From assembly GCA_948567375.1 (NCBI GenBank), contig OX419760.1, positions 18,414,001-18,478,000 of the forward strand: a DNA stretch of 64,000 bases, given 5' to 3'. Of the stretch, positions 1,520-53,973 are shown in pieces. Numbering within the stretch: position 1 is the first letter of the stretch; each line of letters opens with the position of its first letter. This DNA is from Lunularia cruciata (lineage: Eukaryota; Streptophyta; Marchantiopsida; Lunulariales; Lunulariaceae). The translations under genes and the position numbers were made by a program. The notes under the pieces are model-generated. The model had not been told where the DNA came from and ran no database searches. It was given only the letters and a program-made list of their open reading frames with translations.

Positions 1520-1977
1520 TGTCATGCCATTTGTAGTTCCGCATCTAGATGCTTGGACACTGGAGTTCCAGTGATAGTAGTTAGAGTTATTCTAGCAGTT
1601 TCTTAGAGACTACTTTCCGACGGTTAGATTTTGTGTTTGGGGTATTGACTTCACAATGGGGCCCACCGTCACTTTGCACCATTCACACCATTGAGTGTGC
1701 CGTCAGCGGGACCGTTAGGGTTTCAGTGCTAGCTTGAGTCCAGGGGGTACAGTTTTGAAGTGAGCTCCAGAGAGCTCACTTCTTTGATGTTGAGCCTTCG
1801 AGTTCCTAGCCATGGTGGACAGAGGCCGGCAAGCATCACCTGGATTCTTTATGCTTGAGTGGGTGTGGCTTGACTGTAATCAATGCCCAGTTGTTGGCAG
1901 TTTATAGAGTGACAGATCACGTACTGATCTGAGTTGAGTTGAGTTGAGAGGAGAGTGGTAAGCAATCTGATTACATT
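1520..1977 (+). repeat. 5' terminal (LTR-like) region of element A
   Basis: It starts TGTCATGCC, a start shared with B (20,111 on the minus strand) and, as TGTCATAAA, with A3 (59,104). It ends near GATTACA, after a GAGTT-rich tract. A 3' copy of its right half occurs at the end of B (11,751-12,076), which supports its being a long terminal repeat. No convincing primer site follows it, so the exact LTR end is uncertain. Confidence 0.6.
1757..1782 (+). promoter_or_regulatory. Conserved 26-bp palindrome in A-family LTR
   Basis: The arms GAAGTGAGCTCC and AGAGCTCACTTC are separated by 2 bp. In B the palindrome is perfect (12-bp arms, 2-bp spacer) at 19,849-19,874 and again at 11,938-11,963. A3 keeps a weaker version near 59,344-59,368. 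Conservation in all four LTR copies suggests a protein-binding site or RNA hairpin; its function is unknown. Confidence 0.6.
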
Positions 1978-3339
1978 AGAGAAGTGAAGTCAGGGGGAAA
2001 TCGGGTGCAGGAACTGTGAGTGTTGGTGGTATCTCCAAGCTCGGTGGATCGTTGGTAGCTCGATTCAAGTTCAATGTTTCCCTAGTGTGCAGAAGCTTGT
2101 TCAGTTGATGCAGATTTGGCAGTTAGGCGGACAGTGTGCGGAAGCGCTGGCCAAATTTTGAGCAGAGAAGGAGCAATTTTCGAGCAGTGTTGTGATTTTG
2201 AGCTTAGGAGGTGAAGGCATGACCAATTTGCTACAAGTTAGGTGGAGTTGGGAAGCTCTTCTCATGAAATTGTGATTTGGAAAAACCTCTTTTGTCAACT
2301 TGGCTCGAGTGGAAAGTTAGCGGGGGATTTGACGGACAGCCATCTTTAGGGTTTACGTCAGATTTTGGCCAGATTTGGAGGAGTTTTCGCTGTTTGGCCA
2401 GATTTGGAGAAGTTTCACTAATTTCACCCATTTTGGAGGAGATTCGAAGTGGCAACAAGAAAGGCCTTATTTGGCATTTTGAGGCTTTGAGGCATAGGGA
2501 TGTGGGCTATGAGAGGCTACGACGGCCTAGAAAGGCCAGCAAGCCAGCTTGCTGGCGTGAGGCTAGCTAGTTTAGAGTAGATCTTGGTCATTGGTTGGCA
2601 AAATCTGCCTTTCCTGCTAGATTGTGCGCAGTAGGGTTTGATCCCTAGATCTCTTGTTCCTAGACTGGTGCCCTAGCCAACTGGTCCACCCTCACTTGTG
2701 TCTTAGTGACTGTGCCACTGTTATCTATACAAATGTAGCTTTGGCTAGAAGAGGCAGTTTGATCCCATTCTTGGTGATCTTGGTAGCTTAGGACTTAGAT
2801 ACAAACTGCTCTTATGTCAAATGCCAAATGGTGGCAGATTCAGTCCCGTGTTGTGTTGTGAGATGGAGAGTTTTCATTTAGATTTCTTGTGATTGGATCC
2901 CCTCCATTCTCTACTTCTTGTTTGTGCACCACATTTGTGTGAGGTGCCTTGACTTTTGAGCGTTGGTGCTCTGGTGTGCTCTCGATGGTGAGGTTGGAGT
3001 GATGACCAGTCAGACTACCTTTGTTTCTCTCCGGTGAGGCAGGAAGTGATGACCTGCAGACCATGAGAGTGCATGTTATGATGGTAGGTTACAGGTTGCC
3101 CTTTCCCCTAGTGTAGTTATCTCGGTAGAGTTACATTAGTGGGTGGTGTTTAGTTGGTGTTGGCAGGTGGTGGTGTTGGCACTTGGTGGAGTACTTGCGG
3201 TTGCAACTTGCAATTGTAGTTGGTGATTTGGGTTTGCTATTGTAGTTTCTTTGTCACGACGGAGTTCTTTGGAGATTCCAAAGGAGTTAGCCTTGCAATA
3301 CGCAGTAGGTTTACTCGGAGTGGTGCTTGGTATCAACCT
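1978..3339 (+). other. Long untranslated leader of element A
   Basis: About 1.36 kb lies between the LTR-like region and the first gag-homologous codons. Open frames are short and not shared with copy B, so I read it as leader. It contains a tRNA-like segment on the opposite strand at 2,631-2,693. The matching leader in B is about 18,400-19,655, and in A3 about 59,560-60,380. Confidence 0.6.
2631..2693 (-). other. tRNA-like (A-box/B-box) segment in the A leader
   Basis: On the minus strand, TGGACCAGTTGG matches the polymerase III A-box consensus at 11 of 12 positions. GGATCAAACCC, about 45 nt downstream, is a weak B-box. The same segment is in B at 18,889-18,957 (plus strand there), and part survives in A3 near 60,310-60,350. 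It could be a captured tRNA or SINE fossil; it is too degenerate to be a functional tRNA gene. Confidence 0.4.
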
Positions 3340-5167
3340 ATATCTTTGGTCCCAGTGAGGGAGGAGATTGACTCTGAGTTGGAGTTTGACACAGGAGCTG
3401 ATTCACTTGAGAGTGCACTTGGTGTGTCCGCACCGTTGTTGTGGACATGGACGAGATTTATGGGGCCTCCAAAGGCCCTTGGCGTTACTCTGGTACAATG
3501 GGTACCATTGAGTTGGATGACTTCATCCAGGAGTTGATAGTTGGTGTGATCTGCAGCAAATGCGGAACCCAACTTTGTTCACACCCTTCATGGCATGGAA
3601 GGAGTTGTTTCAGCACTTGGAGGGTCCACCGATGGATGACTACCATGAGTTTGAAAGAGCTCATTTGGAGGAGATTGAGTTATGGAGATTGTATTGGTCT
3701 CCACACTATGTCTCCATCACTTCAAGCTCAGTGGCCAGGAGTAGATTGGCTGTGCCTACGAGTTCTAGCTCGAGTAGTGTTGGTAGAGCTAGTGGAAGTG
3801 CACTAGCTGGAGATAGTGCTACTACGAGTGGAGGTACCGCTGCAGGAGGTGGTGTGGTACCGGGGTTTAATCCCATGGTGGAGTTCTTCTTATGTTTGAG
3901 GTAGAACTACCGGGGAGTGTGGACTTACAAGCTGAGGAGCTTGCAAGAGTTCCAGCAGAAGGCTGGAGAGAGCCTACGCGAGGCATACACTTGCATGAGG
4001 CGGCTGATCAGTTTCACTCAGGGAGTTACTGAGGCCCAGGCAGTCCAGTTTTGGTATGGGATACTGGACAAGGAGTTACAACGTAGAGTTCATGATGCTA
4101 CATTGTTGCATGCTACTTCGCCTTCTTTGGCAGTAGTCTTTGGTTTGGCTGAGCTCAATATGGTGGAGGAGAGAGTGGTGACATCTGGATTTGGTAGGGA
4201 GACCTCATCCACGGCTGTGACTTCTTCTAGAGTGCAGCAGAGTGCACCACGCCCTGTTGGTTTTTGAGGATAGGGTAGACAGCCCAGATCCTATGGAGCG
4301 AGTGGAGGGCCTAGTGGAGTTAGACCCTTACCCTCATTTTTGAGTCAGTAGCAGCCAGTGAGTGGTGGTGTTGCTTGTTGGACTTGTGGTGGACCTCACC
4401 ATAGGAGAGAGTGTACTCAAGGCAGCGGACGTGATACCTCTGGTGCATCACAGCCAGCACAGAGGCAGTGTGAGCATTGCCACAGATTTGGTCACACTAG
4501 TGACCGGTGTTTTGACCTACACCTGGAGTTACGGAGTGGTAGGGCTGCTATGGCAGGTAGTAGAGGAGCTCCAGTTCATGGATGACAAGGTGGTAGAGGT
4601 GGTGGTAGAGGATCTACACCTAGTAGGAGTGCAGTACTTGCCCTTACTTCTGACACAGCTATGGCTACTCGGATTGAGCAGTTGGAGCAGAGATTGGCTA
4701 ATATGGCTATTGCTCAAAGGAGATCAGATTTGGGTGCTGAGGCTTCCACCTCATATGTTGGTGATAAAGATGCTTTGGACTTCATGTGCGGAGCAGCACA
4801 GGTGGATGCACCTGCAGCAGTGACTAGGAGTGCAGTACGTGCTCTAGAGCCCAGAGGAACATCAGTGGAGTTGGACCCACAAAGAGGAGAGGTTGGGAGA
4901 GAGGTCAGACTTCCCCAGTCTTTCACGCTATCTGAGGCATTGCAGACGAAATCCATGGTTCCTAGACGTCCCAATGTAGGTGTGGTAGGTGGTGATGGAG
5001 TACATGATAGACTACCTGCTAGTCAGCCACCTGCTACTACAGAGACTGAGTCTAGCATGATGTTGGGGGCGGCTCAGCTAATTATGCGGCGTTCTTTGTT
5101 TTCGGCCAGTGATATGTTTACATTGGGAGTTGACCCAGCCCCAGTATTCCGGTTGGCTACACAGTAG
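3340..5167 (+). pseudogene. Element A gag with two zinc knuckles
   Basis: Homologous to the gag of B and A3. The N-terminal part (3,340-3,560) contains REEIDSELEFDTGA and DMDEIYGASKG-type sequence split over two frames. A capsid-like region follows (MDDYHEF...EEIELWR, 3,630-3,690; SLREAYT...RRLISFTQGV, 3,970-4,030). Two Cys-His motifs lie at 4,376-4,500: a variant (CWTCGGPHHRREC) and a canonical CX2CX4HX4C (CEHCHRFGHTSDRC). Stops at 3,904, about 4,266 and about 4,350 break the frame. In an active element gag would form the virus-like particle and bind RNA. Confidence 0.8.
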
Positions 5168-5389
5168 GGATGGTGCAGTTCCTACTACTAGAGTAGAGGT
5201 GGTTGGTAGTGGAGTTGACTTGGTTGAGGAGCATGGGATCCGTTCAGCGACCAGTGGTTTATGGCAGGCAGCAGCGGCTAGACTAGAGGAGTTGCCAGCT
5301 AGACCGGCCTTTGAGAGAGCGTGGTTTACACCTGGTGTTGTCCTATTGGATAACTAGAGGGGGATTTTTTGTTTGGTGGAACCTTCATG

Positions 5390-5860
5390 GAAGGTCTATA
5401 CACCACAGAGAGTCTTGTTAGACTCTGGTGTGTAGCCCCTTATGTTGGAGAAGGCTGCAATTGTTGGTCTGAAGTTACGGAAGACCGATGTGGAGAGGTG
5501 TCCATTTCAGCTCCAGACATCTCTTGGTGGTGGTTTGACACAATACATCACACATGGAGAGCTTGTTGTCTAGGTTCAGCCTGGTCATCCGACTGATAGC
5601 TCGGTGGTGAGAGCTCAGGCTATTGCGACGATAGCTGAGTCATATGATGTGCTAGTTGGGAGAGCAGTGTTATACCCCATGGGTTTCAGCATTGACTATT
5701 GGGAGGAGACAACCTCTTATAGACGTGGTTGGCAGTCTGGTGAGGGACGGGTTTGTCACCTACTAGTATGCTTTAGTAGTGGCAGTCTTGGCTCACTACA
5801 GTCCGGGACCATGGCAACATCAGTTTTAGCTTTCAGTGGTGCAGTTACTTGGCTTGGTGA
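5390..5860 (+). pseudogene. Element A aspartic protease
   Basis: The active-site loop reads RVLLDSGV followed by a stop and then PLMLEKAA (5,408-5,465). DSG is the standard retropepsin catalytic triplet. The downstream flap and second half (SYDVLVGRAVLYPMGFSIDY, about 5,640-5,700) are recognisable and continue in the same order in B (16,190-15,890). The protease would cleave the polyprotein. Two frames and a stop show decay. Confidence 0.7.
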
Positions 5861-6125
5861 TTTGTTGGAGGGGAACGCCCATGCAGAGGATACTCCAGTA
5901 CCAGAGGAGATCACTTGGCTTTGGAGTACGAGTGGGATTGTTCCATCCACCTTGGATGTTCCATTGTGGAGTTTAGAGGAGGCATTGCAGCAGCATGCAG
6001 ATCAGTTGGTGCAGCAGGCTTGGAGTGGAGCCTTTGTACTATTAGGAGATGAGTGGGAGGATGAGCCTCCAGAGGCAATTGCTTTGACACCTCTGGATAC
6101 CACACTCATTGCTTGGTAGTATCCA

Positions 6126-7090
6126 GTAGAGGAGATATGCCTATTGGAGTTGTTTGGTGGGATCAGCACCTGACTAGCTGCGGTGTTACAGGCGGGTATA
6201 CAAGTACAGAGGTATTTATATGTAGAGAGAGATGAGACTACTAGGTGAGTCTCTCTACATCATGTGGCACACTTGGCCTATTGGTATCCGGAGTTATTAC
6301 CAATGTCAGCAGTCAGAGGTTACCAAAAGGCCCTACCATGAGACATTTCCTTACTGGGGGCACATGACCTAGAGAGGCATGGGCCTATTCACTTGGTGAT
6401 TTCTGGATGGCCATGTCAGGGACATATATGTGCGGGCTGCGGTTAGGGTCTTCAGGATCCTTGTTTTGGTGTGTTTTGGGAGACATTACGGATACTACAA
6501 CATCTCCAGGTTCATATGTCTGTTTCTCCAGCTTACCTTCTGGAGAACGTTCCTTTGTTGGGTGATTCTCGCACTAGAGTAGTGGCAAGTACACATCAGG
6601 TCCATTCTTGGATGGGACCTGCTGTATTGTTAGATGCAGCCATAGTGGGATCACGGGCTCATCGTCTTCATCTTTGGTGGACAAACCTCTTACCCATAGA
6701 GGTTCTACAACGTGCTTATGATGGGATTCAGCGACTGGACCACATTCTTGTTGATGATATCTTGGATGTTGGGCGTCAGTCTCAGACAATGGTAGTGGCT
6801 GATAGGTCACATATGGTAGTGGTGAACCTAGTTAGACAGCCTAGAGCCGCATTTCCCACACTCATGAGTTTCTCAGGCTCTCATGCTTTTAGAGAGGGAG
6901 GACCTGGACTTGTTTGGGACTCACAGTTACAGCAGTTAGTGGAGCCCAACATTGATGAGAGAGAGCGGGCGATGGGTTTTCACACCGGTATTACCGCTGT
7001 TCTAGTAGTGTCAGAGGCATCTAGTCATCAGGTGTTAGGACAGGCTATGGACCTGAATTGTTTGACTTGGATTGTGAGCCTTGGCTGGGC
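6126..7090 (+). pseudogene. Element A cytosine-5 DNA methyltransferase domain
   Basis: One continuous reading register carries motif I LLELFGGIST (about 6,141-6,170), motif II YVERDET, motif IV SGWPCQGH with the catalytic Cys codon at 6,414-6,416, motif VI LLENVP, motif VIII VGSRAHR, a motif IX-type ERERAMGF, and motif X LGQAMDLNCLTW (about 7,035-7,070). Linear motif order and PCQ distinguish it from circularly permuted DRM enzymes. It would methylate cytosine C5 using S-adenosylmethionine. Three in-frame TGA stops (6,171, 6,246, 6,339) lie between motifs I and IV, but the part from 6,471 on is open. It lies between protease and reverse transcriptase, so it is an internal polyprotein domain. 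Confidence 0.85.
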
Positions 7091-7519
7091 AAAGCAGCGT
7101 AGGATGCGCTTGATAAGCATCACCACTCGGACACTTGTGAGCCTTGTGCCTATTGAGACGATTCAGGCACATGTTGGGGGCGATGGACCAAGTGGACATG
7201 GTATTCTTGGGACACATCCAGTAGCTACTAGGGAGAGTGGTCTACTTGGAGTCCATCCATGTGAGCGTGGACTACTTGGATTACACCCTTGGTCCACATG
7301 GGATGCAGCCAGAGGACGTGTGGAGCTTGTAGCCAAAGTGGAGGGAGTTTTTCACACTAAGGTTGGGATCTTTAGTGGTCGAGAGCATGACACTATTGCT
7401 CCCAAGGGCCTAATGTAGCAGTCAGTCAGTGCGTCTTCCACTCCTACAACAGTTATAGAGGATACTTGGGAGCCAGATCTTGGACCCAAGCTTATTGGAG
7501 AGGAAAGATGGAGGGTTTG

Positions 7520-8432
7520 GAGGTTCTTGAGGAGTCACACAAGTTGTTTTGCCTTCAGTTTGAAGGATTTTGGTGCTCTGAAGGGACTTGGTATACTGAT
7601 TGAATTGACTAGCGACACACTAGTTTTCCGATGTCCTTATCGATATAGTGAGATGGAGAGGACATTGATTCAGAGCCGGAGTAGTGACCTTTTTGAGGCT
7701 GGTTTGGTAGAGATTTCACATGGAGAGTATGCATAAGCGACAGTGATGCCAGCCAAGAAGGATACGCATGACAATTATACAGATAGGCGGATGTGTGGAG
7801 ATTACCATTCTATCAACCGACAGACCAGGGCTGATCGGCATGCCATGCCTACACCGGAGGAGATTTTTGATGCGATTGGGCATGCAAAGGTCTTCAGTAC
7901 TTTGGATCTTCGAGCGGGATATCATCAGTTGCCGATCAAGGAGGAGGATAAGTCCAATACGGCATTTTGGGCTATTGATCCTCACGGCAAGGATGTGTTA
8001 TATCAATGGAGGTTCTTACCATTTGGATTAAAGAACGCTCCTGCTGAGTTCCAGAGGGTCATGGATAGGATCCTAGTTGGATTGGATTTTGCTCAGTGCT
8101 ATATTGATGACATTTTGGTTTATAGCACTACTGTGGAGGAGCATGAGAGATAGTTGTTGGAGGTGTTTGAGAGGTTGAGATCTCATGGCCTCAAACTACA
8201 TCTTGGGAAGTGTAGGTTCTTCCACGAGCAGGTTGAGTATTTGGGTCACACTATCTACCCCGGAGGACTTGGTGTTCAGCAAACCAAGGTGGAGGCTATT
8301 GCACGTATTCCTGGGCCTACGGATGTGAGCAGAGTGCGAGCATTCCTTGGGTTGGCAAACTTCTATTGCCGCTATGTTAGAGGATTTAGTGCCATTGCCA
8401 AGGCCTTGACAAAGCTGACCAAGCTTACATAG
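7520..8432 (+). pseudogene. Element A reverse transcriptase
   Basis: Typical Ty3/gypsy reverse transcriptase blocks appear in order: CGDYHSINRQTRADRHAMP (about 7,790-7,850), FSTLDLRAGYHQLPIKEED (about 7,890-7,950), LPFGLKNAPAEFQRVMD (about 8,015-8,065) and the catalytic YIDDILVYS (8,100-8,126). The connection sequence with YLGHTI and FLGLANFYCRYV follows. The frame is open except for stops near 7,734, 8,151 and 8,430. It would copy element RNA into DNA. Confidence 0.9.
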
Positions 8433-8935
8433 GAGTGGTGTTGGGGAGATGAGCAGGAGAGAGCTTTTGTAGAGCTCAAGGACAGGTTGACATCTGCTCC
8501 TATTTTGAGGAGACCGATCAGAGGACGACCATTTCAGGTTCATACTGATTGGAGTATGTTGGGGCTTGGAGCGGTGCTCACCCAACATGATGATGAGGAG
8601 AAGGAATTTGTGGTGGCCTATGCTAGTTGCTCCAACAATTCAGCAGAGGTGAAGTATAGTTCATATGAGGGAGAGTGATTGGCAGCAGTTTGGGCAGTAG
8701 CACATTTCTGATGTTACCTATTTGGTAACCCCTTCACTCTCATCACTGATCATCAGCCGCTGAAGTGGTTGATGGAGTCCGACAAGCATTCAGGGAAGCT
8801 TGCATGATGGGCTCTAATTTTATAGGAGTATGATTTCACGGTTGTTCACAGACCTGGAGTGGTGAACCGTGATGCAGATGGGTTGAGTAAAACCCATGTC
8901 CTAGCCAGCAGGATCAGACCGGAGCACGTTGGCAT
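8433..8935 (+). pseudogene. Element A RNase H
   Basis: Follows the reverse transcriptase. Recognisable parts are PFQVHTDWSMLGLGAVLTQ (about 8,530-8,585), YSSYEGE (about 8,655-8,675), LITDHQPLKWLM (about 8,740-8,775) and a PGVVNRDADGLS-type end (about 8,855-8,890). The first catalytic Asp is in HTDWS. Stops at about 8,679 and 8,712 interrupt it. The B copy (13,028-12,650) is cleaner and has the same layout. Confidence 0.8.
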
Positions 8936-9269
8936 GGTGAGACAGATGAGGAGATGGTGCCAGGTTGGCATGCATCGGCCTTTTTGTGTATATTTGCAAA
9001 GGCTTTGGTGGTATCTCTCTCAGCGCATACAGGAGGAGTTATTGAGGTCATAGATCCAGAGAGTGAAGATATTGGTATAGTTCAGCGAGACATTCATGAT
9101 GATGTCTTAGTGATGGACTATCTTTGCACTGGTGTTGTGGGTGGCACAGTTGGGGCCAAGGAGAGAGACCGTGTTCTTCAGCAAGGCAGACGGTTCAGAT
9201 TGGAGGGTAGACACCTTTTGCGTGTATGGGAGGATGGTAGAGTGCAAGTTGTACCACTTCCATCACAGA

Positions 9270-10189
9270 GACCATAGTTGGTTCGTCATGCTCATGAGGA
9301 GCTAGGACATTTTGGAGTAAAGCGTACGTATAGCTAACTCCAGAGTCATTATTGATGGCGCGGTATGTAGACCAAGGTATAGCAGTTTGTTGCCAAATGT
9401 ATGGTTTGTGACCAAGTTAGAGCATCATTCAATGCTCCTACGCCACAGTTACACCCATTACCTATCATAGGATTGGGTTACCATTGGAGTTTGGACTTCA
9501 CCGGACCTTTACCGCTGACTGTGAGACATCATTGGTATGTTTTGGTGATGGTGGAGCACTTCTCCAAGTGGATTGAGTTGGTGGCACTTCCTGACAAGTC
9601 TAGTGAAGGGATAGCTTACTTGTTCCTGGATCGAGTTCTTAGTCATTTTGGTGCACCAACTGAGGTTTTGACTGATCAGGGTACATAGTTCTTGGGGGAG
9701 TTTCAGGTCTTGTGTGACAAGGCTTTGATTGATCATCGTACTACATCCTGAGATCACCTTGAGGCAGATGGCTTAGCAGAGAGAGTGGTTCAGACGGTGA
9801 AGAGAGGATTGCAAAAGTATGGTTTGCAGAGAGGCCACTTGGGAGATTGGGATCTCCAATTACCTTGGTTGGCCATGGGCTATCGGTTCCACCGGCAAGC
9901 CTCCTTAGCATCCTTCTCTCTATACTTTCTACTCTATGGACGAGATCCAGATTAACCTGTAACCATTCGTCAAGAGGCTACTGTAGTTTTGGACTTGGAT
10001 GACCCCGATGTATGGATGAGCGCATGTTCTCAGCGGGCAGAAATCTTTCAGAGAGTGATGCCGATGGCCTTTGAGAACTTGGTGATTGCTCAGCATAGAG
10101 ATACTTTACGCTATGCTACCATTCAAGGAGGAGGTTATAGACCCTCAATCCGTCAATTTCATCCAGGCGACTATGTATATCTACAGTAG
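9270..10189 (+). pseudogene. Element A integrase
   Basis: The HHCC zinc-binding part (HEELGHFGVKRT, then CMVCDQV; 9,290-9,420) precedes the DDE core: Asp in WSLDFTGPLP (about 9,494), Asp in LTDQGT (about 9,670) and Glu in DGLAERVVQT (about 9,770). A C-terminal beta-barrel-like segment (FHPGDYVYLQ, about 10,150-10,188) follows. Stops at about 9,336, 9,370 and 9,688 break it. Its C-terminus continues into a PHD finger instead of the chromodomain common in plant chromoviruses. Confidence 0.85.
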
Positions 10190-10390
10190 ACACCATCGAT
10201 GACACTTGATGTTTCTACAGGCCGCACTATCTTGAGAGTGCGTGAGGTTTTGCCATCTGGAGTCCTTGTGTTAGAAGGACGTGATGGTGTTGTTTGGAAG
10301 GATCATGTGCGCAATTGTGCGCCATGCCACCTCCCAAACATTGATGGTACTATGGACCCAAGCTTGGCACTTGTACGTGTAGGCTTGAGG

Positions 10391-10525
10391 TGTATGTTAT
10401 GTGGCTCTTCTGGTGGAGCTACTACTATGTTAGTGTGTGATAGCTGTTCGAGAGGATGGCATATGGCATGTATGACTCTTCCCCTCACAGTGGTTCCTTA
10501 GGGATAGTGGTTATGTCCTAGATGT
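10391..10525 (+). pseudogene. PHD finger at the C-terminus of element A polyprotein
   Basis: One register contains eight correctly spaced zinc ligands: CMLC at 10,391, CDSC, the core GWHMAC (His then Cys) and CPRC at the end (10,514-10,525). Hallmark residues ML before CD, and a Trp before the last Cys pair, are present. C4HC3 with these spacings is a PHD finger; members often bind histone H3 tails. Two TAG codons (10,499, 10,505) now interrupt it. It directly follows the integrase C-terminal region (10,199-10,380), which suggests a chromatin-targeting role analogous to a chromodomain (inference). Confidence 0.8.
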
Positions 10526-10689
10526 ACTTGAACTATAGCTAGTTCATTCTTTATATGGTATAGATTGCAGACATGCGACTAACGATGGGGCTTCATAGCA
10601 CCCGACCTCCTGATCTTTGCCCATTAGAGGGTATACCATATACTTAGAGTAGATGGCTATCTGGAGTTAGAGGGACCTAACCGCCAGCT

Positions 10690-10700
10690 AGGGGGGCGAT
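10690..10700 (+). other. Polypurine tract of element A
   Basis: AGGGGGGCGAT is a purine-rich run immediately before TGTGGCAC, the usual position and composition of the plus-strand primer next to a 3' LTR. Confidence 0.5.
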
Positions 10701-10804
10701 TGTGGCACTTTAGAGTCTATGTATGACTTATGTGTGAGTTGTGCTTCTATAGTGTATGCTATTGACAGTGATGTATGTTGTGTAGCGATGTATATACGCA
10801 CGAC
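10701..10804 (+). repeat. 104-bp 3' terminal piece of element A
   Basis: Runs from TGTGGCACTTTAGAG to CGCACGAC. The inverted copy ends B (11,647-11,750, ending CGCACAAC), so this is a real family terminus. It does not match the 5' terminus (TGTCATGCC). In B it follows the right half of the LTR-like region, so it may be the 3' end of a rearranged or partly deleted LTR. Confidence 0.55.
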
Positions 10805-10886
10805 AAATGCCACACATGAGTGGACCAATTCTTATGGAATTGGGCAACCTTTGGTTTCAAGATTGAGGAGCACAACCACTCCAAGG
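10805..10886 (+). mobile_element. Family-C gag remnant right of element A
   Basis: After the AAATG repeat the family-C gag homology continues (for example TTGGGCAACCT and CAAGATTGAGGAGCAC), matching the reverse complement of about 23,042-23,112. It ends at ACTCCAAGG, where an inverted family-C LTR begins. Confidence 0.8.
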
Positions 10887-11615
10887 TGTAATACTCCAAG
10901 GACAAGAGAAGAGAGAGAAACACAAATTACACACTCAACATTTGGTGCCCCAAAGGAGCACCTTCTCTTTATTATATAGACAAAGAAGATCTCCTCCAAG
11001 GAAGCTCCACCATAGGATTAGGCATATAGATAGGTGACATGTCAGCAAGCTCCACCCTTGGATTACTTACTTGGATGGGTGACATGTCGGTCTAGGTCCT
11101 ATCTGGTTGGTCAAACAAGCTTTGACCAGAAGGAATCTTTTAGGGAATCTTCCTTTAGGAGTCAAAATCACGTAAGGTACCATTGGAAAGCTCTCGACGA
11201 GACAAACCAGGGAGGAGGGAAGGCCAACCTTATCTCTATTGGGGGGTCTAGCACATTTACGAGGCCTAATTCATCCGTTTAGGCCTCTTAAATTGCCTTC
11301 AAAGATTTCAGGCATACTTAAGTTCTTATTCTATTAGTAGAAGTCTCCTTTTGGTGATACTTCTTTCTGATTTGTTTAGTCCATCATGTGTAACATCCTT
11401 TCAGATGTTACCAAACCAATTCTCATCCTTAAATCATATGTCTAGCTACTGGTTCTAAGGTTCTCAAGTCTATTTTGGTTTTTGCTCTATTAGTAGAAGT
11501 ACTCTTTTGGTGATACTTCTATCTGATCTATTTTGACCATTATGTATAACATCATTTTAGATGTTACCAAACCAAATTTCACATCTAGATCATATAGCTA
11601 GCTCTTGGTATTACA
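10887..11615 (-). repeat. Family-C LTR, minus orientation
   Basis: 729 bp; on the minus strand it begins TGTAATACC and ends GAGTATTACA. It matches the LTRs at 24,491-25,209 and 53,974-54,709. A purine-rich tract on its minus-strand upstream side (11,616-11,634) marks it as a 3' LTR. There is no target-site duplication at the left end: it abuts plus-strand gag sequence instead. It carries the TATA-like TCTATATAATAAAG on the minus strand (10,967-10,980). Confidence 0.85.
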
Positions 11616-11646
11616 GACCTCCCTCCTTTTAAGACGCAACATCCTT
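11616..11646 (-). other. Polypurine tract and last codons of a family-C element
   Basis: On the minus strand the purine-rich AAAAGGAGGGAGGTC lies directly before the LTR start TGTAATACC, the classical plus-strand primer position. Only about 30 bp of family-C sequence remain before element B begins at 11,647. Confidence 0.65.
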
Positions 11647-12076
11647 GTTGTGCGTATATACATCACTACACAACATACATCGCTGTCAACATTATACATT
11701 ATAGAAGCACAACTCACACATAAGTCATATATAGACTCTAAAGTGCCACAATAATCAGATTGCTTAACACTCTCAACTCAACTCAACTCAAATCAATACT
11801 TGATCTATCACTCTATAAACTGCCAACAATTGGGCACTGATTATAGTCAAGCCACACCCACTCAAGCATAAAGAATCCAGATGACGTTCGCCGGCCTTTG
11901 TCCACCATAGCCAGGAACTCGAAGGCTCAACATCAGAGAAGTGAGCTCTCTAGAGCTCACTTCAAAACTATACCCCCTTGGACTCGAGCTAGCACTGGAA
12001 CCCTAACGGTCCCACTGACGGCACACTCGATTGTGCAAACGATGCAAAGTGACGGTGGGCCCCACCATGAAGTCAC
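11647..12076 (-). repeat. 3' terminal region of element B: LTR right half plus 104-bp end piece
   Basis: Minus strand, in order: the right half of the LTR-like region (12,076-11,751), including the perfect palindrome at 11,938-11,963, then the 104-bp terminal piece (11,750-11,647). The left half of the LTR is missing because it is joined to the integrase at about 12,077. Confidence 0.65.
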
Positions 12077-13290
12077 GTCCGGCAAAGTCCAAACTCCAAC
12101 GGTAACCCAATCCCATGATAGGTAATGGGTGTAACTATGGCATAGGAGCATTGAATGATGCTCTAACTTGGTCACAAACCACACATCTGGCAACAAACTG
12201 CTGTACCTCGGTCTGCATACCGCGCCACCAATAATGACTCTAAAGTAAGCTATACGTACGCTTTACTCCAAAATGTCCTAGCTCCTCATGAGCATGACGG
12301 ACCAACTGTGGTCTCTAAGATGGAAGTGGTACTACTCGCACTCTACCATCCTCCCATACACGCAAAATGTGTCTACCCTCCAATCTGAATCGTTTGGCTC
12401 GCTGAAGAACACGGTCTCTCTCCTTGGCCCCAACTGTGCCACCCACAGCACTAGTGCAAAGATAGTCTATCACTAAGACATCATCATGAATGTCTTGCTG
12501 AACTATACCAATATCTTCACTCTCTGGATCTGTGACCTCAATAACTCCTCCTGTATGCGCTGAGAGAGATACCACCAAAGCCTCTACAAATATACACAAA
12601 AAGGCCGATGCATGCCAACCTGGCACCATCTCCTCATCTGTCTCACCATGCCAACGTGCTCCGGTCTGATCCTGCTGGCTAGGACATGGGTTTCTACTCA
12701 ACCCATCTGCATCACGGTTCACCACTCCAGGTCTGTGAACAACCGTGAAATCATACTCCTGTAAAATCAGAGCCCATCGTGCAAGCTTCCCTGAAAGCTT
12801 GTCAGACTCCATCAACCACTTCAGCGGCTGATGATCAGTGATGAGAGTGAAGGGGTTACCAAATAGGTAACATCGGAAATGTGTTACTGCCCAAATTGCT
12901 GCCAAGCACTCTCCCTCATATGAATTATACTTTGCCTCCGCTGAATTGTTGGAGCGACTAGCATAGGCCACCATAAACTCCTTCCCCTCATCATCATGTT
13001 GGGTGAGCACCGCTCCAAGCCCCAACATACTCCAATCAATGTGAACCTGAAATGGTCATCCCTTGATCGGTCTCCAAAATAGGAGTAGATGTCAACCTCT
13101 CCTTGAGCTCTACAAAAGCTCTCTCCTGCTCATCTCCCCAACACCACTCCTGTGTATGCTTCGTCAGCTTTGTCAAGGCCTTGGCAATGGCACTAAATCC
13201 TCTAACATAGCGGCAATAGAAGTTCACCAACCCAAGGAATGCTCGCACTCTGCTCACATCCGTAGGCCGAGGAATACGTGCAATAGCCTC
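12077..13290 (-). pseudogene. Element B RNase H and truncated integrase
   Basis: A 237-codon open frame (13,028-12,315) holds RNase H (GLGAVLTQHDDEGKEF, LITDHQPLKWLMES, PGVVNRDADGLSRNP) and the start of the integrase region. Integrase homology continues with the HHCC part to about 12,077, ending near the Asp-containing WSLDF position, where the sequence switches to LTR. The first catalytic Asp is at the break and the rest of the DDE core is absent. Confidence 0.8.
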
Positions 13291-13299
13291 CACCTTGGT

Positions 13300-14055
13300 C
13301 TACTAGACACCAAGTCCTCCGGGGTAGATAGTGTGACCCAGATACTCAACCTGCTCGTGGAAGAATCTACACTTCCCAGGATGTAATTTGAGTCCATGAG
13401 ATCTCAACCTCTCAAACACCTCCAACAACTGTCTCTCATGCTCCTCCACAATAGTGCTATAAACCAAAATGTCATCAATATAGCACCGAGCAAAATCCAA
13501 TCCAGCTAGGATCCTATCCATGACCCTCTGGAACTCAGCAAGAGCGTTCTTCAACCCAAATGGTAAGAACCTCCACTGATATAACACATCCTTGCCGTGA
13601 GGATCAATAGCCCAAAATGTTGTCTTGGACTTATCCTCCTCCTTGATCGGTAATTGATGATATCCCGCTCGAAAATCCAAAGTACTGAAGATCTTTGCAT
13701 GCCCAATCGCATCAAAAATCTCCTCCGGTGTAGGCATGGCATACCGATCAGCCCTGGTCTATCGGTTGATAGGATGGTAATCTCCACACATCCGCCTATC
13801 TGTATACTTGCCATGCATATCCTTCTTGGATGGCATCATTGTTGCTGATGCATATTCTCCATGTGAAATCTCCACCAAACCAGCCTCAAAAAGGTCACTA
13901 CTCCGGCCTTGAATCAATGTCCTCTCCATATCACTATATCGGTAAGGACATTGGAAAACTGGTGTGTCACTAGTCAGCTCAATCCGTATACCAGGTCCCT
14001 TCAGAGCACCCAAATCCTTCAAACTGAAGGCAAAACAACTTGTGTGACTCCTCAA
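13300..14055 (-). pseudogene. Element B reverse transcriptase
   Basis: Frame pieces 14,055-13,759 and 13,737-13,303 carry the same blocks as copy A: MCGDYHPINR, FSTLDFRAGYHQLPIKEED, LPFGLKNALAEFQRVMD, and catalytic YIDDILVYS (about 13,480). Only a stop near 13,756 separates the two halves, so this is the best preserved reverse transcriptase of the family here. Confidence 0.9.
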
Positions 14056-14479
14056 GAACCTCCAAATCCTCCGTCTTTCCTCTCCAATAAGCTTGGGTCC
14101 AAGATTTGGCTCCCAAGTATCCTCTGTAACTATAGTATGAGTGGAAGACGTATTGACTGGCTGCTACATTGGGCCCTTGGGAGCAATAGTGTCATGCTCC
14201 CGAACACTAGAGGTCCCAACCTCTGTGTGAAAAACTCCCTCCACTCTGGCTGCAAGCTCCACACGTCCTCTAGCTGCATCCCATGTGGACCAAGGGTGTA
14301 ATCCAAGTAGCCCATGCTCACCTGGATGGACTCCAAGTAGACCACTCTCCCTAGTAGCTACTGGATGTGTCCCAAGAATACCCTGTCCACTCGCTCCATC
14401 GCCCCCAGCATGTGCCTGAATCGTCTCGATAGGCACAAGGCTCACAAGTGTCCGAGTGGTGATGCCTATCAAGCGCATC

Positions 14480-15470
14480 CTACGCTACTTTGCCAAGCCA
14501 AGGCTCACAATCCAGGTCAAACAGTTCAAGTCCATAGCTTGACCTAACACCTGACGCCTAGATGCCTCTGACACTGCTGGAACAGCGGTAATACCGGTGC
14601 AAAAACCCATCGCCCGCTCTCTCTCATCAGCATTGGGCTCCACCAACTGCTGTAACTGTGAGTCCCAAACAAGTCCAGGTCCTCCCTCTCAAAAAGCATG
14701 AGAGTTTGGGAAACTCATGAGTGTGGGAAATGCAGCTCTAGGCTGTCCAACTAGGTTCACCATTGCCATAGGTGACCTATCAGCCACTACCACTGTCTGA
14801 GACTGATGTCCAGCATCCAAGATATCATCAACAAGAATGTGGTCTAGTCGTTGAATCCCATCATAACTACACTATAGAACCTCTCTGGGTAAGAGGTTCA
14901 TCCACCAAAGACAAAGACGATGAGCCCGTGATCCCACTCTGGCTGCATCTAACAATACAGTAGGTGCCATCCATGAATGGACCTGATGTGTACTCACCAC
15001 CACTCTAGTGCAAGAATCACCCATCAATGGAACGTTCTCCAAAAGGTAAGCTGGAGAAACAGACTGATGAACCTGGAGATGTCGTAGTATCCGTAACATC
15101 TCCCAAAACACACCAGAACAAGGATCCTGAAGACCCAAACCGCGGCCCGCACGTGTATGTCCCTGACATGGCCATCTAGAAATCACCAAGTGAATAGGCC
15201 CATGTCTCTCTAGGTCATGCGCCCCCAGTAAGGAAATGTCTCCTGGTAAGGCCTTTTGGTAACCTCTGACTGCTGACATCAATAATAACTCCGGATACCA
15301 ATAGGCCAAGTGTGCCACATGATGTAGAGAGACTTGCCTAGCAGTCTCATCTCTCTCTACATACAAGTACCTCTGTACTCGAATACCCACCTGTAACACC
15401 GTAGCTAGTCCGGTGCTGATCCCACCAAACAACTCCAATAGGCATATCCCCTCTTTTAGATATTGCCAAG
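14480..15470 (-). pseudogene. Element B cytosine-5 DNA methyltransferase domain
   Basis: A 264-codon open frame (15,666-14,872, minus) covers motif I LLELFGGISTG (residues 76-86), motif II YVERDETAR (102-110), motif IV WPCQGHTRAGRG with catalytic Cys167 (codon 15,168-15,166), motif VI LLENVP (208-213) and motif VIII RVGSRAHR (243-250). A stop at about 14,872 follows. Motif IX (ERERAMGF) and motif X (VLGQAMDLNCLTW) continue to about 14,490 in the same order as A. The Gly usually before Trp-Pro-Cys-Gln is Arg164 here, unlike copy A. Predicted reaction: C5 methylation of DNA cytosine with S-adenosylmethionine. Probably now dead. Confidence 0.85.
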
Positions 15471-15829
15471 CAATGAGTGTGGTATCCAGAGGTGTCAAAG
15501 CAATTGCCTCTGGAGGCTCATCCTCACACTCATCTCTTGATGGTACAAAGGCTCCACTCCAAGCCTGTTGCACCACTGATCTGCATGCTGCTACAATGCT
15601 TCCTCTGAACTCCACAATGGAACATCCAAGGTGGATGGAACAATCCCACTCGTACTCCAAAGCCAAGTGATCTCCTTTGGTACTGGAGTATCCTCTGCAT
15701 GGGCGTTCCCCTCCAACAAGTCACCAGGCCAAGTAACTGCACCGCTGAAAGCTAAAACTGATGCTGCCATGGTCCCAGACTGTAGTGAGCCAAGACTGCC
15801 ACTACTCAAGCGTACTGGTAGGCGACATA

Positions 15830-16200
15830 CCCGTCCTTCACCAGACTGCCAACCAGGTCTATAAGAGGCTGTCTCCTCCCAATAGTCAATGCTAAAACCC
15901 ATGGGGTATAACACTGCTCCTCCAACTAGCACATCATATGACTCAGCTATTGTCGCAATAGCCTAAGCTCTCACTACCGAGCTATCAGTCGGATGACCAT
16001 GGTGAACCTGGACAACAAGCTCTCCACGTGTGATGTACTATGTCAAACCACCACCTAAAGATGTCTGGATCTGAAATGGACACCTCTCCACATTGGTCTT
16101 CCGTAACTCCAGACCGACAACTGCAGCCTTCTCCAACATAAGGGGCTGCACACCAGAGTCTAACAAGACTCTCTGTGGTGTATAGACCTTCTCTCAAGGT
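15830..16200 (-). pseudogene. Element B aspartic protease
   Basis: Starts with the catalytic LLDSGVQPLMLEKAA (about 16,170-16,125), uninterrupted here, unlike copy A. It continues through an ATIAESYDVLVGGAVLYPMG segment. Stops near 16,033 and 15,965 break it. A linker of about 350 bp leads to the methyltransferase. Confidence 0.7.
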
Positions 16201-16419
16201 CCCACCAAACAAAAAAATCCCCCTTTGGTTATCCAATAGGACAACACCAGGTGTAAACCGCGCTCTCTCAAAGGCCGGTCTAGTTGGCAACTCCTCCAAT
16301 CTAGCCGCTGCTACCTGCCATAAACCACTGGTTGCTGAACGGATCCCATGCTCCTCAACCAAGTCAGCTCCACTACCAACCACCTCTGCTCCAGTAGTAG
16401 GAACTGCACCATCCCTACT

Positions 16420-18300
16420 GTCACACAATGTGGCAGCCAACCGGAACACTAGGGTTGGGTCAACCCCCAATGTAAACATGTCACTGGCTGAAAACAAAGG
16501 ATGCCGCATAATCAGCTGAGCCGCCCCCAACATCATGCTAGACTCAGTCTGTGTAGTAGTAGGTGGCTGACTAGTAGGTAGTCCATCATGTACTCCATCA
16601 CCACCTACCACACCTGCACTAGGACGTCTAGGAACCATGGATGTCGTCTGCAATGCCTCAGATAGCGTGAAAGACTAGGGAAATCTTACCTGTCTCCCAA
16701 CCTCTCCTCTTTGTGGGTCCAACTCCACTGATGCTCCTCTAGGCTCTGGAGCACGTACTGCACTCCTAGTCACTACTGCAGATGCATCCACCTGTGCTGC
16801 TCCGCACATGAAGTCCAAAGCATCTCTATCACCAGCATATGAGGTGGAAGCCTGAGCACCCAAATCTGATCTCCTCTAAGCAATAGCCATATTAGCCAAT
16901 CTCCGCTCCAACTGCTCAATCCAAGTAGCCATAGTTGTGTCAGAAGTAAGGGCAGGTATTGCACCCCTACTAGGTGTAGATCCTCTACCACCACCTCTAC
17001 CACCTTGTCCTCCATGAACTGGAGCTCCTCTACTACCTGCCATAGCAGCCCTACCACTCCATAACTCCGGGTGTAGGTCAAAACACCGGTCACTAGTGTG
17101 ACCAAATCTATGGCAATGCTCATACTACCTCTGTGCTGGCTGTGATGCACCAGAGGTATCAGGTCCGCTGCCCTGAGTACACTCTCTCCTATAGTGAGGT
17201 CCACCACAAGTCCAACAAGCAACACCACCACTCATTGGTTGTTGCTGACCTGAAAATGAGGGTAAGGGTCTAACTCCACTAGGCCCTCCACTCGCTCCAT
17301 AGGATCTGGCTTGTCCACCCTGTCCTTGAAAACCAATTGGGCGTGGTGCACTCTGCTGCACTCTAGAAGAAGTCACAGTTGTGGATGAGGTCTCTCTACC
17401 AAATCCAGATGTCACCACTCTCTCTTCCACCATATTGAGCTCAATACGCTCAGCCAAACCAAAGACTACTGCCAAAATGGGCAAAGTAGCCTACAACAAC
17501 GTAGCATCACGAACTCTACGTCGCAACTCCCTATCCAGTATCCCATACCAAAATTGGACTGCCTGGGCCTCAGTAACTCCCTGAGTGAAACTGATCAGCC
17601 GCATCATGCGAGTGTATGCCTTGCGTAGGCTCTCTCCAACCTTCTGTTGGAACTCCTGCAAGCTCCTCAGCTTGTCAGTCCGCACTCCCTGGTAGTTCTG
17701 CCTCAAACATAGGAAGAACTCTACCATGGAGTTAAACCCCGGTACCACCCCACCTCTTGCAGCGGTACCTCCACTCGTAGTAGCACTAACTCCAGCTAGT
17801 GCACCTCCATTAGCTCCACCAACACTACTCAAGCTAGAACTCGTGGGTACAGCCGATCTACTCTTGGCCACCGAGCCTAAAGTGATGGAGATATAGTGTG
17901 GAGACCAATATTGTCTCCATAACTCAATCTCCTCCAAATGAGCTCTCTTGAACTCATGGTAGTCATCCATCGGCGGACCCTCCAGATGTTGGAACAACCC
18001 TTTCCATGCCATGAAGGGTGTGAACAAAGTCGGGTTCCGCATCTGCTACAAATCACACCAACTATCAAACTCCTGGATGAAATCATTCAACTCAATGGTA
18101 CCCACTATACCAAAGTAACGCCTAGGGCCTTTGGAGGCCCCATAAATCTCATCCATGTCCCACAACAACGGTGCGGACACACCAAGTGCACTCTCAACTA
18201 AATCAGCTCCTGTGTCAAACTCCAACTCAGAGTCAATCTCCTCCCTCATTGGGACCTGAGATATAGGCTGATACCGAGCACCACTCCGAGTAAACCCACT
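16420..18300 (-). pseudogene. Element B gag with two zinc knuckles
   Basis: The N-terminal REEIDSELEFDTGAD segment (about 18,245), EIYGASKGPRRY, the capsid-like region 18,042-17,491, zinc knuckles at about 17,225-17,105 (CWTCGGPHYRREC and a degraded second), and a Ser/Pro/Gly-rich tail to about 16,420. Several stops and frame changes. Layout is identical to copy A. Confidence 0.8.
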
Positions 18301-18399
18301 GCATACTGCAACTCCTCTGGAATCTCCAAAGAACTCCTTCGTGACCACGTAACTGCAACAGCAAACCTGAACCACCAACTGCAACCGCAAGTCGCAACC

Positions 18400-20111
18400 G
18401 CAAGTGCCCCACCAAGTGCCAACACCAACTAGACACCACCCACTAATGTAACTCTAACCGAGATAACTATACTAGGGGAAAGGCAACCTATAACCTGCCA
18501 TCATAACACGCACTCTCACGGTCTGCAGGTCATCACTTCCTGCCTCACCGAAAGAGAAACAAAGGTAGGCTGACTAGTCATCACTCCAGCCTCACCACCG
18601 AGAGCACACTAGAGCACCAACGCTCAAAAGTCAGGGCACCTCACACAAACATGGTGCACAAACAGGAAGCAGAGAATGGAGGGGATCCAATCACAAGAAA
18701 TCTAAACAAAAACCCTCCATCTCATAACACAACACGGGACTGACTCTGCCACCATTTGGCATTGACATAAGAGCGATTCGGATCTAAGTCCTAAGCTACC
18801 AGGATCACCAAGAATGGGATCAAACTGCCTCTCCTAGCCAAAGCTACATGTGTATAGATAACAGTGGCGTAGTCACTAGGACAACAAGTGAGGGTGGACC
18901 AATTGGCTAGGGCACCAGTCTATGAACAAGAGATCTAGGGGTCAATCCCTGTTGCACACAATCTAGCAAGAAAGGCAGATTTTGCCAACCAATGACCAAG
19001 ATCTACTCTAAACTAGCTAGCCTCACGCCAGCAAGCTGGCTTGCTGGCCCTTTTAGGCCTTCGTAGCCTCTCATAGCCCATAGCCCTATGCCTCAAAGCC
19101 TTGAAGCCTTGAAATGCCGAAATTCAGCCAAATGAGGCCCTTCTTGTTGCCACTTCGAAACATCCTCCAAAATTGGCAAAACTTCTCCAAATCTACGAAG
19201 GTCCTCCAAACTAGCAAAACTCCTCCAAATCTGGCCCAAAATCTGATGTAAATCTGACATAAACCCTAAAGATGGTTGTTCCGCCAAATCCCCCGCTAAC
19301 TTTCCACTCGAGCCAAATTGACAAAACGGGTTTTTCCAAATCACAATTTTATGAGAAGAGCTTCCCAACTCCACCTTCAATTTCACTTTCTGAGCCCAAC
19401 TCGCAGCAAATTGGTCATGCCTTCACCTCCTGAGCTCAAAATCACAACACTGCTCAAAAATTGCTCCTTCTTTGCTCAAAATTTGGCCAGCGCTTCCGCA
19501 CACTGTCCGCCTAACTGCCAAATCTGCATCACTTGAACGAGCTTCTACACACTAGGGAAACACAGAACTTGAATCGAGCTACCACGATCTACCGAGCTTG
19601 GAGATACCACCAACACTCAACGTTCCTGCACCCGATTTCCCCCTAACTTCACTTCTCTGATGTAATCGGATTGCTTAACACTTTCAACTCAACTCAACTC
19701 AAATCAGTACTTGATCTGTCACTCTATAAACTACCAACAACTGGGCACTGATTACAGTCAAGCCACACCCACTCAAGCATAGAGAATCCAGGTGACGCTC
19801 GCCGGCCTCTGTCCACCATAGCCAAGAACTCGAAGGCTCAACATCAAAGAAGTGAGCTCTCTAGAGCTCACTTCGAAACTATACCCCCTGGACTCGAGCT
19901 AGCACTGGAACCCTAACGGTCCTGCTGACGGCACACTCGACGGTGCAAACGGTGCAAAGTGACGGTGGGCCCCACCATGAAGTCAGTACCCCAAACACCA
20001 AATCAGACTGTCGGAAAGTAGTCCCTGAGAAACTACTAGAATAACTCTAACTACTATCACTAGAACTCCAATGTCCGAGCAGCTAGATGCGGAACTACAA
20101 ATGGCATGACA
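18400..20111 (-). repeat. Leader and 5' LTR-like region of element B
   Basis: Minus strand: LTR-like region 20,111 to about 19,655 with the perfect 26-bp palindrome at 19,849-19,874, then a 1.25-kb leader holding the tRNA-like segment (18,889-18,957). Collinear with 1,520-3,339 of copy A. Confidence 0.7.
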
Positions 20112-20940
20112 TGTCCCACCTCTCATGCTCTTCTAAGGTGAAGCCATGTAACATGTCTTCAATTGTGTGATTAGCCCGCTCTGTTTGGCCATTTGTTTGT
20201 GGGTGGTAAGTTGTGGACATGGCCAACTTGGTTTTGAAGAAACCAAGGAGTGTTCACCAAAACAAACTGGTGAATTGAGTGCCTCTATCGGTGATAAGTA
20301 CTCTAGACAAGCCATGGTGAGAGAAGATTGCATCTAAATATAATTGAGCTAGTTGTGGAGCAGTCACATCCTTGGTGGTAGTGCACACATGAATCATTTT
20401 GCTGAGCCGGTCCATAAAGACCACGATGGAGTCAAACCCTGAGGTGGTCTTGGGTAATTCACAGACGAGATCCATACTCACTTGTTCCCAATGTTGGGTA
20501 GGCGTGGGGAGAGGTTAAAGGAGCCCTACAAGAGCTTGATTAGAAGTTTTCTTTTGTTGACAAAGTAAGTAGCTGTGCACATAGTAAATCACGTTGTTGC
20601 TCATCTTGAGCCAATAGTAATGGCATTGGATTGCATCCAAGGTCTTGTCCACTCCGACATGACCTGCAATGGCCAAATCATGACATTCCACTAGAATAGT
20701 GGTGCGTAATTCTAGGACATTTGGGATCCATAATCTACCATCACAAAAGGTGAGTCCTTGGGTACTAGTGACGCCTTTGGATGATTGCGCTTCTACAATC
20801 TATGGATCCATTTTTGTAGCAGCCAAAATCTCTAGCCAGAATTCAGGGTTAATCTTAACCTCTTTCACCAAGTTGTTTGCCATTGGCATGCGGGTGAATG
20901 CATCTCAAGTTGCTTCTTACCTTCCACATAGGTGATTGTC
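20112..20940 (-). pseudogene. Family-C integrase, truncated by element B
   Basis: HHCC part (GHVGVDKT; CQQKK) at about 20,690-20,560, then the DDE core: Asp in SMDLVCELP (about 20,475), Asp in LITDRGTQF (about 20,290) and Glu in NGQTERANHT (about 20,180). The protein ends at HERWD (20,115), where element B begins. All three catalytic residues remain; the C-terminal domain is lost. Confidence 0.85.
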
Positions 20941-20949
20941 ATGTTGAAG

Positions 20950-22250: not shown

Positions 22251-22424
22251 TTTGTCCATCAAGTTGTGCACTCTAGACTTCTCTTATTAGTCCCATGAAA
22301 CATCTATTGGTCTTATAGACAGTTGCCGTCCCTATGACATATAGAGGCAGATCTTGCCTGGGTGAATTTTTTGTAACCCCAATGATTGACCATTAGTGGG
22401 TTCTCACTACTTTCTTCCTCTAAT

Positions 22425-53970: not shown

Positions 53971-53973
53971 TAC

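Follow-up and report, generated by a model that had tools for sequence, protein, structure and literature searches.

The 64,000-bp stretch of the liverwort Lunularia cruciata genome analysed here (contig OX419760.1, positions 18,414,001 to 18,478,000; hereafter the window), which belongs to an assembly of 566 Mb in 74 contigs, contains two damaged copies, A and B, of a Gypsy-type retroelement carrying its own DNMT3-like DNA methyltransferase (MTase) domain. Judging by its sequence, the domain is almost certainly a C5-cytosine MTase by identity, and the family is a high-copy, Gypsy-type one with a Gag-side polyprotein ending in this domain; the full reading developed below, up to methylation of the element's own cDNA in the particle, is about as likely as not. 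An earlier note, made from the letters of the window, had proposed a Gypsy-type retroelement with its own C5-MTase in both copies, and this was confirmed. Since copies A and B are both broken, the structure of the element was taken from related copies elsewhere in this genome whose frames are open. DNA methylation is usually a weapon of the host against transposons, and a successful element keeping a methylating enzyme of its own suggests that the mark can serve the parasite.

A search with the Pfam DNA_methylase profile (PF00145), proposed earlier as a check, placed both copy B (22.2 bits) and L010 (29.8 bits), one of the relatives with an open first reading frame, above the cut-off of 22, with only part of the profile covered. 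Motifs I, IV (PC), VI (ENV), VIII and X follow each other in linear order, together with the catalytic Cys, Glu and Arg, in L010 and the aligned rows (53 rows, two exceptions). The exclusion of a DRM origin made in the earlier note thus stands, as the circular order of DRM-type enzymes, with motifs VI–X before I–IV, is not that of the element MTase; in contrast, the host frame L020 has a permuted, DRM-like order. The catalytic Cys is present in all 51 rows having a letter at that place, Glu-Asn in 53/53 and Arg in 51/53. The row from Sphagnum is missing both the PCQ stretch and the Arg, which suggests a damaged copy or a faulty gene model; the PCQ stretch is also absent from P0057, and the Arg from P0002. 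The nearest known relatives are DNMT3 catalytic domains, which head both the sequence and the fold lists. In 23 of the 53 MTase rows, for example P0051, P0077 and P0053 from Closterium, motif IV carries Glu for Pro (WECQ), a variant that is to our knowledge rare among C5 enzymes.

The protein search of the genome gave at least 138 matches (from 15,295 first-look candidates), some of them in stop-free frames of up to 1,448 codons, and the exact 25-base junction behind the MTase, stop included, occurs at 1,378 places, the reversed pattern at none. Ten stretches of 9.5 kb (L009–L018) were chosen for long frames, and in five of them (L009–L012 and L014) ORF1 is open over 1,428–1,448 codons. ORF1 of L010 contains zinc knuckles at residues 412 and 443, a protease recognised by its LLDSGA site at about residue 762 (with no Pfam protease match) and the MTase at about residues 1001–1317, and ends at a TAG with the reverse transcriptase (RT) frame directly next to it and in phase. 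The position between protease and RT assigned to the MTase in the earlier note is accordingly right, but the domain belongs to the Gag-protease frame. The downstream frame of L010 codes, according to Pfam, for RT, RNase H, the zinc finger and core of an integrase, and a PHD finger (6.5e-11), the latter lying in phase behind the integrase in both L010 and L012. The succession of protease, RT, RNase H and DDE integrase is that of Ty3/Gypsy elements, and no tyrosine recombinase family was found in the frames scanned, which have an rve integrase instead.

Pieced together from copies with open ORF1, the element consists of the repeat A1, Gag with two zinc knuckles, aspartic protease, MTase, UAG-CARYYA, RT, RNase H, DDE integrase, PHD finger and the repeats B1-A2-B2. 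Four copies read to both ends (L010, which is 9.9 kb long, L013, L015 and L017) carry A1 on the 5' side of the coding region and B1-A2-B2 on its 3' side, so that the termini are A1 and B2 and not the same long terminal repeat. All four start with TGTC and end with GACA (TG..CA ends) and are flanked by the 4-bp duplications CATG, GTGT, CTTG and GCTT, respectively; such a target duplication was found in 5 of the 6 copies read. The inner joint between B1 and A2 (GACA-GC-TGTC in L010 and L017, GACA-GT-TGTC in L015, GATA-GC-TGTC in L013) looks like joined element ends. Split direct repeats in the order A1-coding-B1-A2-B2 are carried by PAT/TOC-type DIRS elements, and the four copies share this repeat order with them; unlike them, the element has a DDE integrase, 4-bp target duplications and TG..CA ends and lacks a tyrosine recombinase. 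We know of no worked-out replication scheme for a DDE-integrase element with DIRS-like split repeats.

The junction with any codon at the stop position occurs at 1,438 places, TAG being the codon in 1,378 of them; the other codons among the matches listed are TAA (4), AAG, TTG and GAG (1 each). The codon is TAG in all 32 distinct ungapped copies, a set obtained by aligning 44 loci and dropping nine for gaps and three rows as second fetches (L002–L008 being the best matches to copy B, L009–L018 those chosen for long frames, and the rest those with the best Pfam scores). The hexamer after the stop conforms to CARYYA in 30 of the 32 (28 CAGCCA, one CAGCTA, one CAGTCA), the two misses being CAGCTT and CAGCAA. 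UAG-CARYYA is described as the type I readthrough signal of tobamoviruses (PMC5382211). The frame ends 74–129 residues behind the MTase in 15 of 16 relatives, namely Marchantia proteins and a metagenome group about 52% alike, and 16 residues behind it in P0008, so a stop at this place seems older than the L. cruciata genome. Chlorophyte-type proteins have no stop from RT through MTase, and a scan of viral contigs for DNA of outside relatives at the UAG found nothing.

Together, these features suggest that the element is probably expressed from the Gag side with readthrough at the UAG. It is unlikely that the UAG is a true end, with ORF2 translated from a separate start, a spliced RNA or by reinitiation: ORF2 could indeed start at a downstream ATG, and MTase and RT are joined in four Marchantia gene models, perhaps across predicted introns, but only one stop separates the RT frame from ORF1, with which it is in phase, and the hexamer after this stop conforms to CARYYA, for which the chance of one ancestral coincidence is 1 in 512 at equal base frequencies.

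To read selection from the 32 copies, changes private to one copy were assumed to be mostly post-insertion, and those common to at least three copies to have passed through transposition. With CG and CHG transitions excluded, the shared changes in the MTase are 12 synonymous to 2 nonsynonymous and the private ones 27 to 52 (p=0.0006); as the shared variants are mostly synonymous and the private ones are not, the domain was probably selected during transposition, and it very likely has a selected function. The MTase is also the best conserved part of ORF1 in comparison with Marchantia P0001 (234/317 residues identical, against 83/135 in the protease, 190/292 in the Gag part and 29/77 in the tail), the values with P0012 being 169/317, 60/134, 85/309 and 29/82, respectively; RT (139/181) and RNase H (113/141) are kept about as well as the MTase, or better, in comparison with P0015. 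It is hardly credible that the domain is a functionless passenger derived from a piece of a gene picked up accidentally, even though copies A and B are both broken, 23 of the 32 fetched copies have a stop within the domain and the signal of selection is not significant when all changes are counted. The shared variants other than the methylation type argue against a passenger, the domain and its catalytic residues are kept in algae and land plants, and 46 of the 54 premature MTase stops are CAG to TAG or CGA to TGA changes, as decay after insertion would give.

Two protein database searches, in which the candidates sharing most words were scored (the second covering the best 120 of 140 listed), yielded at least 168 retroelement proteins among the matches listed, most rows being metagenome proteins. 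The named hosts among these matches are Marchantia polymorpha, Sphagnum fallax, Closterium sp. NIES-53, Chlamydomonas eustigma, Haematococcus lacustris, Monoraphidium neglectum and, by its code, Chromochloris zofingiensis; no Klebsormidium protein is among them. The element MTase is 73% identical to that of Marchantia, whose relatives of the domain (60–73%) are mostly deposited as ‘hypothetical proteins’. Among the 168 listed proteins, the MTase precedes RT or RNase H in 8, lies behind one of them in 124 and has an undecided order in 36; the full order RT-RNaseH-MTase-IN-PHD is seen in 89 rows.

The MTase tree comprises 78 rows: 52 of the 168 proteins plus L010, 11 plant host DNMT3s including one from this genome, two animal-type and 12 bacterial-like sequences. 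The 53 retroelement MTases group together in one clade (100/100), whose stem, 1.9 changes per column long, joins an open fork with the plant, animal-type and bacterial-like rows; within it, the two domain-position types are each monophyletic, with moderate support (93/84 and 85/79). The DNMT3s of plant hosts form a separate clade (100/100) with two bacterial-like rows beside it (80/89). The earlier note had left it between a relative of the known retroelement MTases and an independent capture: relatedness to the Gypsy MTases of Sphagnum, Closterium and chlorophytes is borne out by the common clade, and a recent capture from the host DNMT3 was rejected, as the latter groups with MpDNMT3b in the tree, apart from the element. 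Bryophyte host DNMT3s (MpDNMT3a/b, Physcomitrium) share linear motif order, PCQ and DNMT3-type sequence with the element MTase, yet differ from it in their separate clade, in the PF11926 domain of database relatives (which we take to be DUF3444) and in the separated exons in this genome. The host DNMT3 of this genome shares 65% identity with the DNMT3s of two Marchantia species, which, like the 73% of the element MTase, most likely reflects a host close to Marchantia. An intron-bearing host DNMT3 with PCQ lies at L049 (G000:C7, about 31989 kb), and a second DNMT3-like fragment is found at L022.

The RT tree contains 38 rows, namely 35 RTs of MTase-bearing elements (five of them liverwort-type) and three RTs of two MTase-less families of this genome; window element C (misaligned, branch 9.75) and P0052 (long branch) were dropped. 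All 35 MTase-bearing RTs lie on one side of a branch (100/99) and the three MTase-less ones on the other. So rooted, the RNaseH-MTase-IN type (30 rows) is a clade (99/99) and the PR-MTase-RT type (5 rows) is not. In the first MTase-less family, the domain spacing of L080 (protease 36–125, RT from 329, RNase H to 679, integrase from 775) leaves no room for an MTase; the second is 91% identical to window element C, the pieces of which leave no such room either. One capture and one move of the domain would fit the trees, the very long stem pointing to no particular donor; as there are only two outgroup families, the RT tree is weak evidence for one capture.

The retrotransposon-borne MTases of algae and dinoflagellates mentioned in the earlier note proved to be real: Dnmt3 has been described in Gypsy elements of the charophyte Klebsormidium nitens, and DNMTs in both DIRS and LINE elements of Symbiodinium, in which copies are more numerous than in K. 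nitens (PMC5890265); PMC12344493 repeats these cases and names the streptophyte family Copia. A Gypsy element with Dnmt3 is therefore already known as a kind, KnitGypsy-Dnmt3. By its published description, that element shares with the liverwort one the Gypsy domain set, an intronless linear Dnmt3-like MTase, a DIRS-like repeat layout (Fig. 4 legend) and purifying selection on the MTase; however, its MTase is in the Pol polyprotein ORF, whereas here it ends the Gag-protease ORF before the UAG, and the main text does not mention the PHD finger that is present here (PMC5890265). It also belongs to an alga, whereas the host here is a land plant in which the junction is found more than a thousand times. 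Chlorophyte Gypsy MTases (Chlamydomonas eustigma, Haematococcus lacustris, Monoraphidium neglectum, Chromochloris) form one clade with the liverwort ones (100/100), and many of these proteins have a C-terminal PHD finger, but in them the MTase follows RNase H and precedes the integrase, all within a single long frame or gene model, and WECQ often replaces WPCQ. SymbioDIRS-Dnmt3 and SymbioLINE-Dnmt of Symbiodinium are likewise retroelements with a C5-MTase; unlike the element described here, they are tyrosine-recombinase or LINE elements, considered independent acquisitions, and the enzymes of the DIRS type methylate CG in yeast (PMC5890265).

The decay of the copies bears on what the enzyme does. 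C-to-T type changes per site and copy amount to 0.039 at CG and 0.044 at CHG in the 32 copies, compared with 0.007 at CHH and 0.002 for transitions at A/T; such CG- and CHG-rich decay and the types of the stops mean that the copies are very probably methylated in CG and CHG. Over 483 bases, two MTase-less Gypsy families of this genome (11 and 9 copies) show CG rates of 0.034 and 0.044 and CHG rates of 0.035 and 0.036, against 0.038 and 0.043 in the MTase-bearing family in the same comparison, so host methylation suffices for this decay and no post-insertion mark by the element enzyme is visible. A Fisher test on the CG:CHG counts of this comparison (p=0.018) was not used, since the differing numbers of sites confound it. 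Self-restraint, in which the enzyme would silence the element's own copies, limit their number and keep the host viable, agrees with the heavy deamination-type change at CG and CHG, that is, with methylation of copies after insertion; it is nevertheless quite improbable, given that the MTase-less families decay about alike and that at 1,378 exact junctions any restraint would be weak.

In the reading that we prefer, most ribosomes would stop at the UAG, so that the MTase would be produced at the level of Gag and incorporated into the particle, and a few would read through to give Gag-Pol with RT. The enzyme would then methylate the new cDNA of the element inside the particle or the pre-integration complex, and the methylated copy would arrive passing as host-like repeat DNA, and the PHD finger next to the integrase may direct this complex towards certain kinds of chromatin. 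Methylation of cDNA was proposed by the authors of PMC5890265 for Symbiodinium DIRS elements, and the Gag-side place of the MTase would make the particle a natural site for it. On the sequence evidence, we give slightly less than an even chance to element cDNA being the substrate before integration.

An action on target chromatin is rather unlikely. In that case the MTase, with the PHD finger, would mark the surroundings of the insertion and aid integration or retention in silent chromatin, which would agree with the in-phase PHD finger of L010 and L012 and with the arrangement of the 89 rows of other-type relatives given above, but the MTase of the liverwort element is in the Gag-side frame and its PHD finger beyond the UAG, so that they would not be in the same main protein. 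The chance is also small that the domain acts on RNA, or binds nucleic acid within the particle, with DNA methyl transfer not selected: it does stand beside Gag and the zinc knuckles, and RNA was raised for the LINE type (PMC5890265), but almost all rows retain the catalytic Cys, Glu and Arg, and in fold the domain comes nearest to DNMT3-type DNA enzymes.

Combining methylation of particle cDNA with the trees, it may tentatively be suggested that one Gypsy lineage took a DNMT3-like enzyme once, at an early point of green-lineage evolution, kept it as a required part of its life cycle in chlorophytes and land plants and moved it once within the element. The land-plant form would be coupled to Gag by a leaky UAG, each particle containing numerous MTase molecules to methylate the cDNA before integration, so that a writer (MTase) and a reader (PHD) would be carried by one DIRS-shaped Gypsy element; as a whole, this scenario is less probable than not. 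Several observations weigh against the preferred reading of a Gag-side enzyme that methylates the element's cDNA. ORF2 is open as far as the PHD finger in none of the ten stretches (the longest frame has 912 codons, in L009, and ORF2 of L010 has one in-phase stop), hence the copies have an open ORF1 but are not proven autonomous. The CARYYA context was read as DNA in this genome only, the Marchantia proteins and the P0012 group being judged by the protein end, and the Marchantia gene models P0004, P0006, P0009 and P0015 continue into RT. With all changes counted, the shared and private classes do not differ significantly (26:34 versus 43:93, p=0.14, in 32 non-random copies), nor did they in an earlier all-variant comparison (p=0.11). 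The Klebsormidium Gypsy MTase gave no methylation in yeast, a result that its authors call inconclusive because human DNMT3B failed too (PMC5890265). Finally, there is no methylation decay beyond that of the two MTase-less Gypsy families of this genome.

No report of an MTase-bearing Gypsy element in land plants or chlorophytes was found among the titles and abstract starts listed in a search of open-licence PMC text. Five host DNA methyltransferases are listed for Marchantia (PMC5784723), and host enzymes are discussed in a paper on bryophyte methylation (PMC10952607), the passages of both containing no mention of retroelement enzymes. As far as searched, then, what is new is the range over land plants and chlorophytes, the two MTase positions, the location of the MTase on the Gag side ahead of a leaky-type UAG, its combination with a PHD finger, and the contrast of shared and private variants. 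The published cases found concern one charophyte alga and one dinoflagellate genus, to which a high-copy land-plant family near Marchantia is now added; as relatives occur in this experimental model, the question is testable at the bench. Retroelement MTases can, moreover, inflate counts of plant DNMT3 genes.

The two window copies (Table 1) are inverted relative to each other and 93% alike over the longest ungapped stretch. The MTase of copy B is decayed, with two internal stops, a frameshift upstream and Gly replaced by Arg beside PCQ, although the open frame with motifs I–VIII reported for it earlier was found again. Copy B lacks the integrase end and the PHD finger, has Y in place of the first Cys of a zinc knuckle and shows no matching target duplication at its ends. 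Copy A is flanked by the duplication AATG at 1516–1519 and 10806–10809, and its layout, A1-coding-B1, is what recombination between B1 and B2 would leave.

Table 1 Features of copies A and B of the element in the window (positions in bp from the first letter of the window)
Feature	Position	Strand	Remarks
MTase domain, copy B	14500..15450	-	matches residues 1001-1317 of open ORF1 of L010
Open frame with motifs I-VIII, copy B	14872..15720	-	282 codons; MTase register until about 15579
UAG ending Gag-PR-MTase frame, copy B	14164..14166	-	followed by CAGCCA (CARYYA); RT frame in phase
Copy B, whole	11646..20111	-	A1, coding region, A2, B2
A1 terminal repeat, copy B (5' end)	19663..20111	-	
A2 repeat, copy B	11752..12093	-	
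B2 repeat, copy B (3' end)	11646..11752	-	
Reverse transcriptase, copy B	13303..13758	-	RVT_1 2.6e-29 (Pfam)
RNase H, copy B	12315..13055	-	RT_RNaseH 7.4e-36 (Pfam)
Gag zinc-knuckle part, copy B	16876..17124	-	EHCHRFGHTSDRC; translation and knuckles in L010 ORF1
Copy A, whole	1520..10805	+	A1, coding region, B1; A2 and B2 missing
A1 terminal repeat, copy A	1520..1973	+	
MTase domain, copy A	6132..7082	+	4 internal stops
UAG ending ORF1, copy A	7416..7418	+	followed by CAGTCA (CARYYA)
Reverse transcriptase, copy A, two frames	7737..8432	+	translation and inverted match with copy B
Integrase core, copy A	9383..9688	+	rve 3.7e-10 (Pfam)
Frame with C-terminal PHD finger, copy A	10190..10501	+	PHD 2.7e-7 (Pfam)
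PHD finger, copy A	about 10391-10489	+	truncated
B1 repeat, copy A (3' end)	10699..10805	+	

Many matches to the out-of-frame start of copy B raised the idea of a subfamily with a shared frameshift, which was rejected because the small deletions are mostly at differing places (L003 and L006 share one, most others differ); the matches arose because the frameshift of copy B itself picked those copies out. A third, more diverged relative lies at 59363–61033 of the window, at the edge of an AT-rich region, its repeat and Gag parts being 74–83% alike to those of copies A and B.

Copies A and B sit among MTase-less Gypsy-type copies arranged as inverted pairs, 78–88% alike, at 20254–24402, 25485–27346 and 161–1260, which consist of protease, RNase H and integrase pieces with no room for an MTase. 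The RT at 21519–21999 is 91% identical to the high-copy family of L063, and another Gypsy element at 62697–64000, comprising a protease and the start of RT, is 81% identical to the high-copy family of L052 and L060. A dispersed repeat of about 0.7 kb, 88–96% alike, occurs in both orientations at 10887–11616, 24491–25209 and 53973–54659. Host exons code for an ATP_bind_1 protein of the GPN-loop GTPase type (41067–41471, 5.8e-30) and for a CwfJ-like protein (48267–48701, 6.2e-13).
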